This document shows positions 1 through 3,430 of a stretch of 7,014 nucleotides of DNA, one piece after another; positions within the stretch are counted from its first letter, which is position 1; every line of letters begins with the position of its first letter. Where the stretch lies: assembly GCA_946479005.1 (NCBI GenBank), contig CAMLEM010000089.1, positions 1-7,014 on the forward strand, written 5' to 3'. The notes beneath the pieces were generated by a model. That model had not been told where the DNA came from, did not search any database, and saw nothing but the letters and a program-made list of their open reading frames with translations. The DNA comes from an uncultured Chitinophagaceae bacterium. GTDB taxonomy: Bacteria > Bacteroidota > Bacteroidia > Chitinophagales > Chitinophagaceae. The position numbers and the translations under genes are program-made.

Positions 1-986
1 TCTTCCTGCTCCTCCAGGTAGGCCTCGATGTCCCTCATCACGGGGTCGAGGATCTGGCCTTCGTGCAGCCAGTTCCCATAGAACTGGGAAACCTGGTCCT
101 TCCATTGCAGTTGCCATTTGCTGAGCACGTGTTTTTCGAGCGCGTGGTGGGCCTTGATGATCACCATAGGTGCGGCTGCTTCGAATCCCACCCTTCCTTT
201 GATCCCGATGATCGTATCCCCTACGTGAATGTCGCGCCCGATCCCAAAAGGGCCCGCGATCGACTGGACATATTCAATGGCATCTGCGGGATGATCATAA
301 TTGAAACCGTTCACTTTGCGAAGCTCTCCTTTTTCAAAGTAAAGGGTCAGGTGTTCGGCATCATCGCGGCTCACCTGGGTGGGCCAGGCTTCTTCAGGAA
401 GCATACCCTGCGAACTCAATGTTTCTTTCCCCCCGATGCTGGTGCCCCACAATCCCTTATTGATCGAATAGGCCGCTTTTTCAAAATTCATTTCCACGTT
501 TCTTTCCCGCAGGTAGCTGATCTCCTCGTCGCGCGTTAGCCCGAGATCGCGGATCGGCGTAATGATCCGGATGCCCGGTATCATTATGTGAAAGATCATA
601 TCAAAACGTACCTGGTCGTTCCCTGCACCGGTGCTTCCGTGAGCCACCGCTTCGGCGTTCAGTTCACGCGCGTGTTCGGCAATGTGCAGCGCCTGGCTCA
701 TTCTTTCAGCAGAAACAGAAAGAGGGTAGCTGTTATTTTTCAGCACATTTCCAAATATGAGAAAACGGATGATGCTGTCGTAATAACTTTTAACGGCATT
801 CACGGTTACGTGGGTCTTCACACCCAGCGCGTAGGCGTGATCTTCGATCTGCCTCAGCTCTTCAGGGGAAAAACCCCCGGTGTTGACAATGATGCTGTGC
901 ACTTCCCAGCCTTCTTCGGAAAGATATTTCACGCAAAAGGAAGTATCGAGACCTCCGCTGAAACCAAGCACAAGTTTCTTTGACAT
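1..986 (-). CDS. argG: Argininosuccinate synthase, C-terminal end cut by window edge
   Basis: ArgG joins citrulline and aspartate, using ATP, to make argininosuccinate, the penultimate step of cytosolic arginine biosynthesis. I translated 328 residues from the ATG at 986. The N-terminal pyrophosphatase-type ATP loop SGGLDTS lies at residues 10-16. The signature HGSTGAGNDQVRFD lies at about 116-129; its Ser and Ala replace the Cys and Lys common in other ArgG lineages, a form I associate with Bacteroidetes. Further on come an ITPIRDLG stretch and a YSINKGLWGTSIGGKE block typical of the family. ArgG is usually about 400 residues, so roughly 70 C-terminal residues lie beyond position 1. The start is 3 bp after the stop of the GNAT gene, with no Shine-Dalgarno, so the two are almost certainly co-transcribed and probably translationally coupled. 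No frameshift is seen. Identification is firm. Confidence 0.96.
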   Translation of the reverse strand, partial: MSKKLVLGFSGGLDTSFCVKYLSEEGWEVHSIIVNTGGFSPEELRQIEDHAYALGVKTHVTVNAVKSYYDSIIRFLIFGNVLKNNSYPLSVSAERMSQALHIAEHARELNAEAVAHGSTGAGNDQVRFDMIFHIMIPGIRIITPIRDLGLTRDEEISYLRERNVEMNFEKAAYSINKGLWGTSIGGKETLSSQGMLPEEAWPTQVSRDDAEHLTLYFEKGELRKVNGFNYDHPADAIEYVQSIAGPFGIGRDIHVGDTIIGIKGRVGFEAAAPMVIIKAHHALEKHVLSKWQLQWKDQVSQFYGNWLHEGQILDPVMRDIEAYLEEQE

Positions 987-989
987 AGG

Positions 990-1691
990 TTAAAAGTTAA
1001 AGAAATAGTGAAGAAGTGATTTCGGCCTGCCTCCCCTGTTCTGCTTTTTCTGGAAAGGCTTCAGCAATTTCCAGCGCTTGAAGCGAAGCAATCTTTCAAA
1101 GCCTTTGGCATTCTCTTCGAAATATTTCCGGGTCTCCTCAGGCTCATAATGATCCTTCGGGTCATAAAGCATCGCGGTACACATACAGTTCTTTCTGTCC
1201 TTGCTCATAAGGATCTCATAGTTCACACAGCTCTTGCAGCCGGCCCAGAATGCATCGTCCTGGGTGAGCTCGGAATAGGTCACCGGTTCGTAACCCAGCT
1301 CCGAATTGATCTTCATCACGGCCAGCCCGGTGGTCAACCCGAATATCTTCGCATTGGGGTATTTCTCCCGGGAGAGGTCAAAGATTCTGCGCTTGATGGA
1401 CTTGGCCACCCCGCTCTTCCGAAATTTGGGAGCTACGATGAGCCCGCTGTTAGCCACGTATTCGCCGTGGCTCCAGGTTTCGATGTAACAAAAGCCCACC
1501 CATTCGCCATCCGTGGTGAGGGCGATCACAGCCTTCCCTTCATCGATCTTTTGCTCGATGTAATCGGGGCTGCGCTTGGCGATACCTGTTCCCCTGGCAG
1601 CGGCAGAAGCTTCCATTTCATCGGTGATCTGCCCGGCGTATTTCTTATCGGCAGCATTGGCTACCCTGATAAGGATATTTTGATCGTTCAA
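990..1691 (-). CDS. GNAT acyltransferase, probable N-acyl(succinyl)glutamate synthase of arginine pathway
   Basis: A 233-residue GNAT-fold protein. The acyl-CoA binding loop of motif A reads VAPKFRKSGVA at about residues 86-96 (R-x-x-G-x-A type), after the strand YVANSGLIV. The second half carries a four-cysteine cluster, CxxC at 152-155 and CxC at 169-171, which could bind metal; the tail is basic. It sits 3 bp upstream of argG in one operon, so an arginine role is likely. Bacteroidetes lack a classical ArgA and several use N-succinylated intermediates. From memory, genetic work in Bacteroides and relatives points to an argG-linked GNAT as the N-acylglutamate synthase; I cannot verify this here. 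The start is TTG at 1691: upstream to the in-frame TGA at 1713-1715 there is no ATG or GTG (only ATT or ATC), and the next ATG (residue 26) would cut the first strand. The acyl group and acceptor are inference; GNAT membership is firm. Confidence 0.85.
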   Translation of the reverse strand: MNDQNILIRVANAADKKYAGQITDEMEASAAARGTGIAKRSPDYIEQKIDEGKAVIALTTDGEWVGFCYIETWSHGEYVANSGLIVAPKFRKSGVAKSIKRRIFDLSREKYPNAKIFGLTTGLAVMKINSELGYEPVTYSELTQDDAFWAGCKSCVNYEILMSKDRKNCMCTAMLYDPKDHYEPEETRKYFEENAKGFERLLRFKRWKLLKPFQKKQNRGGRPKSLLHYFFNF

Positions 1692-1708: not shown

Positions 1709-1719
1709 CTGGTCACCAG
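1709..1719. repeat. Palindrome CTGGT-G-ACCAG just upstream of the GNAT start
   Basis: A perfect 5-bp inverted repeat around one central base, ending 17 nt before the TTG start codon of the GNAT gene. As RNA it could form only a small 4-bp, 3-nt-loop hairpin. As DNA it could be a weak operator. Its half TGACCAGT recurs upstream of the PorP gene (6643-6650). Function is unknown and chance is possible. Confidence 0.3.
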
Positions 1720-1748
1720 CCTAAATAAAATACGGGGGGCTTTCTTCA

Positions 1749-1784
1749 CTGACAGGGACCGGGGTGAAGGGTTCGTCCTGTCAG
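1749..1784 (-). promoter_or_regulatory. Leader hairpin starting at the stop codon of the arginine-rich leader ORF
   Basis: On the minus-strand transcript CTGACAGG (1784-1777) pairs perfectly with CCTGTCAG (1756-1749). Two further pairs are possible past a bulged C, leaving a loop of about 15 nt. The left arm contains the leader ORF's TGA (1783-1781). Two alternatives are mutually exclusive with it: TCGTC (1793-1789, inside the Arg codons) with GACGA (1777-1773), and CTTCAC (1769-1764) with GTGAAG (1749-1744). Such competition is what an attenuator needs. The hairpin is followed by UGAAGAAAGCCCCCC, not a U-run, so it is not a standard intrinsic terminator. The structure is seen directly; its role is inference. 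Confidence 0.5.
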
Positions 1785-1900
1785 CAGAGACGACGTCGGG
1801 GACGGGAAAAAGTGAACACATCGAAGCCAACGGAATAAACGCCGCTGGTGATGGGAGCGTGAAACGCAAACTGTTTTGTATGTGTAAGTATGTTAGCCAT
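1781..1900 (-). CDS. Candidate arginine leader peptide (39 aa) upstream of the GNAT-argG operon
   Basis: A small ORF begins at the ATG at 1900 and ends with TGA at 1783-1781. It has 39 codons and no recognisable domain. Its last codons are TCC CGT CCC CGA CGT CGT CTC TGC, giving S-R-P-R-R-R-L-C, so four Arg codons in five lie six or fewer codons before the stop. There is no other Arg in the peptide. The ATG lies 14 nt after a TAnnTTTG-type promoter element, as expected for a leader peptide translated right from the transcript start. The end product of the downstream operon (GNAT, argG) is arginine. By analogy with trpL, hisL and similar peptides, ribosome stalling at these codons under low charged tRNA-Arg would report arginine supply. 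An 89-nt spacer with a hairpin separates it from the GNAT gene. It could still be a chance ORF; conservation was not checked. Confidence 0.55.
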   Translation of the reverse strand: MANILTHTKQFAFHAPITSGVYSVGFDVFTFSRPRRRLC

Positions 1901-1914
1901 TGCTTAACAGGCGA

Positions 1915-1949
1915 CAAAAGTATACATAAGTTTACAAAAAGGAAGCCAA
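1915..1949 (-). promoter_or_regulatory. Candidate Bacteroidetes-type promoter of the arginine operon
   Basis: Reading the minus strand, TACTTTTG (1922-1915) is an exact match to the Bacteroidetes -7 consensus TAnnTTTG. A TTG (1949-1947) lies 24 nt upstream as a possible -33 element, slightly longer than the usual spacing. An A8 run (1957-1950 on the minus strand) sits immediately before it and may act as an UP-like element. The transcript would start near 1908-1910, about 8-10 nt before the leader ORF ATG and about 220 nt before the GNAT gene. No clear ARG-box palindrome is seen. Confidence 0.5.
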
Positions 1950-2680: not shown

Positions 2681-3430
2681 TTAAGTGTTTTTCACCCTTT
2701 GAAAACTTAACGTAGCGGCAATGATGGCATAGGCCGGTGCGAGGAAGATCAGTATATGCATCACATAGAACAAAAACCCGTTGCCGATCGCCAGGCCTTT
2801 ATGCCTTCCCGAGAAAGCGGCGCTCTGCGCGGGGGTAAAACCATTTCGCGCGAAGCTGTAATCCAGCATCGCGAAACCGAAATAATAACATTCCATCAGC
2901 AGGGCGATCACGGGAGTGATCCATCCTACGAGGGGGATCAGTGACATTAAAATAAGGCCGAACAGGTAAACCGATTGCCAGCCTACATTCCTTAAGGCCA
3001 GCCTGATGGCACGTATGGAATCTTTTTTCAGGTCCTTCCAGTTGAACCGGTAATCCGTTCTTCCATCAATGATGGCTTCGGTTTTTTCGCTCAGGAAGGC
3101 GAAAAGAGGCAGGCCGATGATCAGGATGAGCGTGCGGAAAAGGGAGAAATAAAATAAAACCAGTACGATCTGGAGCATCATCCCATTCATCACGAATAGA
3201 AAGCTCAGGAATTCGTTCCTCTCTTTCTGCAGCCAGGTTTCAATGTTCAGCTGGCGGTTCATCCAGGCCACCACATCGGTGGAAGATGACCAGAACAGGT
3301 ACATCGCGGCTAAGAAAAGCACGGTGTATATGATACCCGGCCCGATGATCCATTTAAACGTATGATGTTGCCTGATAAAAAGTCGCGCATCACCCCAGGA
3401 TTGAATGGCTATGACGATTTCCTTGAGCAA
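2681..3430 (-). CDS. EI24/CysZ-family integral membrane protein
   Basis: A 249-residue inner-membrane protein resembling the EI24 domain family, which includes the sulfate transporter CysZ. Hydrophobic segments lie at roughly 27-47, 77-110 (long, perhaps a hairpin), 152-181 and 215-243. Between the second and third is the family-like stretch GLPLFAFLSEKTEAI, followed by a charged cytoplasmic-looking loop. No enzymatic motif is seen, and a sulfate role cannot be assumed. The start is a TTG at 3430: there is no ATG or GTG upstream in frame before the divergent gene, the next in-frame ATG is deep inside, and the resulting MLKEIVIAIQSW is how I expect such proteins to begin. It is the first gene of an operon with the RsmI-like methyltransferase, and is divergent from the DNA glycosylase gene across 41 bp. 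Confidence 0.82.
   Translation of the reverse strand: MLKEIVIAIQSWGDARLFIRQHHTFKWIIGPGIIYTVLFLAAMYLFWSSSTDVVAWMNRQLNIETWLQKERNEFLSFLFVMNGMMLQIVLVLFYFSLFRTLILIIGLPLFAFLSEKTEAIIDGRTDYRFNWKDLKKDSIRAIRLALRNVGWQSVYLFGLILMSLIPLVGWITPVIALLMECYYFGFAMLDYSFARNGFTPAQSAAFSGRHKGLAIGNGFLFYVMHILIFLAPAYAIIAATLSFQRVKNT

Follow-up and report, generated by a model that had tools for sequence, protein, structure and literature searches.

In the trp, his and leu attenuators of proteobacteria a leader ORF follows the promoter and has, close to its stop, a cluster of codons for the operon's end product. Short peptides can also sense a free ligand via the nascent chain and a stalled ribosome, as SpeFL does for ornithine and the fungal arginine attenuator peptide for arginine. 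Within the Bacteroidota, a study on Flavobacterium psychrophilum reports, in its available text, strong indications that leader-peptide attenuation acts on amino-acid operons, and pheA and hisG are among the genes for which it names a conserved upstream 5' element (PMC9723704). In Staphylococcus aureus the rbfL leader, in the accessible part of its description, senses arginine restriction through decoding pauses at rare Arg codons (PMC13009471). An arginine leader peptide on an arginine operon of Bacteroidota was not found in the open-access literature, a search that left subscription papers mostly uncovered so that a prior mention is possible, and the part available of a structured-RNA survey of 26 genomes (PMC8632094) holds nothing of the kind.

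The locus compared here with these systems lies on the minus strand of the window, the whole stretch of 7,014 nucleotides that was analysed, from an uncultured Chitinophagaceae bacterium. Read along that strand the order is a promoter box, a short ORF, a hairpin (H1), an element complementary to the hairpin loop, the gene for a GNAT acetyltransferase and then argG. The ORF (1781..1900) has 39 codons, MANILTHTKQFAFHAPITSGVYSVGFDVFTFSRPRRRLC plus a stop, and its stop is separated from the GNAT-argG genes by 89 nt. GNAT (990..1691, with a TTG start at 1691) is the first gene of the arginine operon, and argG for argininosuccinate synthase (1..986) is truncated by the window end. An ORF between a candidate promoter and GNAT-argG is what the original prediction had placed here, and the arrangement stands, with the box at 1922-1915, GNAT at 1691-990 and argG at 986-1 on one strand. 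By its content the operon is one of arginine biosynthesis, comprising GNAT and argG, and in two relatives (L001 and L007) argC and an argD homologue further on; argG adjoins GNAT in 108 of 110 loci, and the contigs of the two misses end near GNAT. The GNAT protein matches general GNAT models only, Pfam Acetyltransf_1 just above the cut-off and others below, and carries a Cys-rich stretch; in these Bacteroidota it may act as the acyltransferase for the first step of arginine synthesis. As in the window, 41 of 45 hairpin-class loci start GNAT with GTG or TTG, ATG being commoner elsewhere (L001-L080). Upstream on the same strand the neighbours are a relative of the 16S rRNA cytidine-2'-O-methyltransferase family (1979-2677, the match being below the cut-off) and an EI24/CysZ family membrane protein (2681-3430).

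The predicted −7 promoter box TACTTTTG (1915..1922), of the TAnnTTTG type, came from a motif search across hairpin-class sequences and fits the Bacteroidota −7 promoter consensus, TAnnTTTG. With four duplicate loci left out of the count, TAnn(n)TTTG occurs 90-230 nt upstream of H1 in 56 of 81 hairpin-class sequences, most often at 120-160 nt, where 0.057 would be expected per 140 nt of coding background. A well-spaced −33 element was not seen with the box of the window. The box at 1922-1915 precedes the leader ATG at 1900, and such a predicted promoter makes it less likely that transcripts begin downstream of 1800, a finding that had been named as one that would undo the proposal.

The ORF itself reads as had been described. 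Translation of 1781-1900 on the minus strand ends in S-R-P-R-R-R-L-C-stop, four of five codons at 1804-1790 are for Arg (CGT, CGA, CGT, CGT, within CGT CCC CGA CGT CGT for R-P-R-R-R, 1790..1804), and the peptide has no Arg outside this terminal cluster. Its description as unannotated holds in part, as 21 protein clusters resemble the leader of the relative L001, of which six are named "hypothetical protein" and 15 are unnamed. For comparison 80 GNAT loci, mostly from Chitinophagaceae, were fetched, and the window together with 78 of them (L012 being dropped for its Ns and L033 for its length) made a set of 79 upstream regions in which a leader ORF was taken to be one with three or more Arg among its last 10 codons, ending 60-180 nt before GNAT. 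Such an ORF is present in 63 of the 79; over 60 dinucleotide shuffles the count averaged 2.5 and never exceeded 7. Of 13 other amino acids tested on these regions, not one shows an enrichment comparable to that of Arg. Beyond this Chitinophagaceae-centred set, the best 30 GNAT matches across a wider Bacteroidota set (one of which, L081, is the L001 genome again) have a leader with at least three Arg in 26 cases and with at least four in 17, against shuffle means of 1.1 and 0.1, and 60 further Bacteroidota loci have an Arg-ending ORF in 26 (shuffle mean 2.6). These 30 best matches and 60 more, not strictly by rank, brought the upstream regions covered to 90 of the 158 GNAT-positive genomes. Peptide endings are specific to lineages, among them RPRRRPVF, RPRRGC, RRPRI, PFWVRR, RRRVFIPRV, RRRRP and RIPRRR. 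The comparison of upstream regions that had been proposed as a check thus finds a conserved Arg-ending ORF in relatives whose bodies vary between clades and whose terminal Arg cluster persists, and a recurrent short ORF with differing bodies and persistent Arg codons is the pattern that this check had called for. The observation made on the 39-codon ORF of the window is confirmed as real and as more than chance.

Choice among the Arg codons is far from even. In three leader classes CGA accounts for 42%, 49% and 70% of the Arg codons of the leader, whereas in GNAT of the matching loci (45, 21 and 10 loci) its share is 6%, 8% and 5%, and it is the rarest Arg codon in this neighbouring enzyme gene (5-8%); within the window's subfamily, 19 of 20 relatives of equal peptide length keep a CGA matching that of the window. 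A preference of this kind, for a codon that is rare, would suit the sensing of charged tRNA. The body of the peptide is a separate issue. In the window's subfamily it shows a pN of 0.068 and a pS of 0.65 over 20 taxa, a test from which six of 26 peptides were excluded as being of other length, the window's own among them. A paired comparison over 14 taxa (six of the 20 being left out as no GNAT stretch had been taken for them) gives pN 0.064 and pS 0.63 for the leader body, and pN 0.070 and pS 0.77 for 150 GNAT codons. The low pN marks the ORF as truly coding, and in the window's lineage its residues matter. Peptide conservation beyond the codon cluster was found in the window's subfamily and not in the RRGC/F class, in which codons −18 to −9 show no amino-acid constraint (pN 0.68, pS 0.74, with four of 23 C-class rows left out).

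Around the stop codon of the leader lies H1 (1749..1784), built from CTGACAGG, an ACGA bulge, stem 2, a loop and CCTGTCAG, and defined by covariation and a covariance model (R1), which matches the window at 1743-1788 with 64.1 bits. Its consensus is CTGAYAGG-ACGA-stem 2-loop-CCTRTCAG, with the leader stop codon, TGA at 1783-1781 in the window, inside the 5' arm. One hit per genome came from 54 of 195 family genomes searched with the H1 pattern, and none from a reversed-pattern control. Thirty of the 54 sites were read, and at all 30 an ORF closes at the TGA of H1; at least two of its last 10 codons are for Arg in 29 (the ORF of L186 has one) and at least three in 23. GNAT lies 84-114 nt downstream in 29 of the 30, and the contig of the remaining one is too short. 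The covariance model, built from the sequences gathered by the pattern and then run on the 80 loci without it, finds H1 in 46 of these and in the window, no scores falling between 52 and 18 bits. Under stricter filters only 4 of 295 class genomes have H1, one of them weakly, and this, together with its occurrence once per genome in the family sample, led to rejection of H1 as a general attenuator part. Rfam 15 gave two chance-level matches across 1600-2050 of the window (best E 1.6, far below the gathering score) and no match in 12 loci.

Support for the pairing comes from base changes in stem 2 and in the loop. One stem 2 pair is GC in 34, AU in 14, GU in 3, CG in 1 and other in 2 (n=54), a second is CG in 33, AU in 17, UA in 1 and other in 3 (n=54), and a fourth pair tested holds in just 18 of 54; of five covariation measures on stem 2, one (double-change pairs) is not above shuffles. 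Invariance of stem 1 is partly built in, since the retrieval pattern fixed most of its bases. Unpaired ACGA and the GUGRAA 3' of H1 are strongly conserved. The loop, NACC (CACC in the window, 1763..1766), covaries with a downstream element, AGGCTGGTGACC (1711..1722), in which TGGTG (1718-1714) is complementary to it. In 29 of 39 window-type sequences the loop base before ACC pairs with the base after the downstream TGG, as CG in 15, AU and UA in 4 each, GC in 3 and GU in 3, which is to say in all Watson-Crick combinations plus G-U; shuffles average 14.8 and none of 20000 reaches 29, although two of the five covariation measures (double-change pairs and pair-type number) are not above shuffles here. 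On the opposite side the neighbouring pair forms in 27 of 37, and the distance from the H1 loop to the UGG element is 42-56 nt, 44 in the window. An extended helix GYCC-GGAY beside the loop contact is unsupported, one of its positions pairing in only 20 of 39. Covariation of the loop position inside the RNA spoke against a T-box, in which UGGN would pair with a tRNA end, and that idea was given up.

Other pairings and hairpins were noted by eye. In many of the loci that have no TGGT element (L026, L036, L070 and L078, for example) a CAAY on the 5' side of H1 is complementary to RTTG at the GNAT start. Other lineages have different hairpins, placed at the leader stop codon or beyond it: in six loci (L149, L151, L160, L162, L165 and L166) the leaders end in RRP or RRRP, CCC-GTAA-GGG or a similar sequence surrounds the stop, and a second hairpin follows, with a loop close to UAGGUGAGUCC and changing stem bases, and in five others (L102, L107, L108, L111 and L113) post-stop hairpins have changing stems and a loop close to CC-UACGU-GG.

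How the leader would act on the operon is less plainly written in the DNA. Terminator-like hairpins are present in some relatives (L016 and L036, for example), and a hairpin with a U-run is found in 39 of 143 loci (27.3%) at −3 kcal, against 16.7% in shuffles, and in 15 of 143 (10.5%) at −5 kcal, against 7.9%. At −3 kcal the window has no intrinsic terminator between leader and GNAT, and T is not in excess after the downstream element (0.45 vs 0.44 over the next ten bases). Intrinsic terminators were therefore rejected as a general feature, the excess being modest at −3 kcal and near shuffles at −5, with none in the window. Of the reading as classic ribosome-sensing attenuation in the original prediction, the Arg-sensing leader is supported by the comparison, and the "classic" part, given the weak excess and the lack of a terminator in the window, is not established.

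Folding models, with five duplicate loci left out, the ribosome footprint imposed and pseudoknots outside the model, were run on 79 RNAs. H1 has a mean modelled probability of 0.84 in the free RNA. A ribosome placed at the first Arg codon leaves a mean of 0.75, although in some sequences H1 drops, as in L002 from 0.49 to 0.04, and with a ribosome on the stop H1 is lost because the footprint masks its arm. Since H1 also folds in free RNA, the starved state would not be structurally unique. An alternative hairpin of the pause type, H0, between the Arg codons and the 5' arm of H1 was rejected (76% of cells pair vs 75% in shuffles, with covariation slightly above shuffles), and mutually exclusive pairing of the Arg codons and H1 is weak.

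The ORF is probably the leader of a ribosome-mediated arginine attenuator controlling the GNAT-argG-argC-argD operon. Comparison of sequences gives the parts, namely the leader with its coding constraint and its Arg codons, H1 and the loop pairing, and from these we infer that the ribosome stalls, which way the switch works and how its output arises. Transcription would start just upstream of the leader, as the conserved promoter box suggests, and a ribosome translating the leader would meet the CGA-rich Arg codon cluster 3-8 codons before the stop. With ample charged tRNA-Arg the ribosome would reach the stop and cover the 5' arm of H1, so that H1 is blocked. With charged tRNA-Arg scarce it would halt on the Arg codons, and for a halt at the first of these the footprint should end before H1, allowing H1 to fold and its loop to pair with the UGG element some 44 nt downstream. 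Once formed, H1 with its loop contact would let the operon be expressed, in the likeliest case by signalling transcription read-through.

Alternatives differ in which feature of the locus they take to be the sensor or the output. That the ORF is a functionless product of chance is scarcely credible: short ORFs abound, and 14 of the 79 regions have an Arg-ending ORF on the reverse strand over a position window wider than in the forward test, but recurrence, position, codon choice, coding constraint and operon linkage all speak for a function. It is a more serious matter whether codons or residues are read. The peptide body could sit in the exit tunnel and, with free arginine or ornithine, halt the ribosome near the stop, the Arg then serving as arrest residues and not as codons. 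A body in the window's subfamily that is as constrained as GNAT departs from the usual codon-counting leader, leaves room for such a function and, so far as substitution patterns can tell, is hinting at a nascent-chain role; however, bodies of other clades change freely, as in the RRGC/F class, and the strong preference for the rare CGA points to codon reading, so a nascent-chain sensor in place of codon reading seems unlikely. The two can operate together.

At the output end the switch could lie in translation or in Rho, with leader translation altering access to the GNAT start, or Rho access to a C-rich stretch after H1. Such an output is conceivable, and we would put it at clearly under an even chance. 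A general U-tract terminator is missing, GTG and TTG starts dominate GNAT in the hairpin-class loci, and a C-rich stretch is often found 3' of H1, yet the folding models leave the GNAT start equally accessible (0.52-0.53) across the three ribosome states (pseudoknots again being outside the model), and on this ground occlusion of the GNAT start codon was rejected. Both this output and the nascent-chain sensor overlap with the attenuator. An improbable alternative is that H1 and its loop contact form an arginine-binding aptamer, a riboswitch, to which the Arg leader would be a separate second sensor. The strong conservation of ACGA and GUGRAA and the long-range contact made by the loop would suit an aptamer, but most stem 1 bases were demanded by the retrieval pattern, H1 is absent from many relatives that keep the Arg leader (only 46 of the 80 loci have it), and Rfam offers no match.

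The ribosome-mediated arginine attenuator gains a wider setting from the distribution of the repressor ArgR. Among 395 Bacteroidota genomes the ArgR C-terminal domain is found in 137 and GNAT in 158, and the two together in 5 where 54.8 would be expected (Fisher p 1e-31, kinship being ignored); kinship explains part of this exclusion. In all five genomes with both (L201-L205) argR lies directly upstream of GNAT-argG, so that the repressor gene heads the operon and sits where the leader sits elsewhere, and this shared position is telling. Of 15 loci that were re-fetched, the leader having been absent or weak at first reading, 11 have argG adjoining GNAT. One of the argG-linked loci (L215, from the L153 genome) has an Arg leader after all. 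The other ten (L206, L207, L211-L214, L216-L218 and L220) have no ORF ending with at least three Arg and their genomes are not among the ArgR-positive ones, and with at least ten argG-linked operons having neither leader nor ArgR the leader is common and not universal. For these leaderless argG-linked operons there must exist either a third mode of control or a leader that was overlooked.

A broader proposition is offered tentatively, as a possibility we think doubtful in its entirety. Across much of the Bacteroidota the arginine operon might be under a leader peptide and not under ArgR, the control having been rebuilt repeatedly with different bodies, Arg codons and stop-codon hairpins. The window's lineage would then have a double sensor, one part being the Arg codons, which respond to charged tRNA-Arg, and the other a conserved nascent chain contributing a second signal, with both read out by a new pseudoknot-like RNA in place of a plain terminator. 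If the attenuator reading holds, a missing arginine control would be supplied for the many Bacteroidota that have the operon and lack ArgR, amino-acid attenuation would be extended to arginine biosynthesis in this phylum, whose ribosomes are reported to sequester their anti-Shine-Dalgarno sequence, and a new RNA element would be added. The near-exclusion of GNAT and ArgR, with argR at the operon head where both occur, would make a swap between RNA sensor and repressor directly testable.

Set beside the described systems, the closest likeness is to the trp, his and leu attenuators, with which the locus shares a short ORF after the promoter (here a predicted one), clustered codons near the stop, a hairpin overlapping the stop and an operon for the matching pathway. 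It differs from them in the amino acid, arginine, in having no consistent intrinsic terminator, in the contact of the hairpin loop with a downstream element and in the constrained peptide body of one subfamily. SpeFL and the fungal arginine attenuator peptide are alike in that a short peptide reports ornithine or arginine through a stalled ribosome, which at the present locus would be presumed; here, in contrast, the clustered Arg codons are the feature common across clades. The candidates of Flavobacterium psychrophilum share the phylum and leader-peptide attenuation upstream of amino-acid operons, although arginine is not named in the main text of that report, its supplementary table apart (PMC9723704). 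The rbfL leader shares the use of rare Arg codons in a leader peptide as an arginine sensor, and differs, in the accessible part of its description, in that it controls translation of rbf, belongs to another phylum and has two Arg codons, AGA and AGG (PMC13009471). Attenuation by amino acids is itself known, and what is new here is the RNA element H1 and the unusual coding constraint on the leader body.
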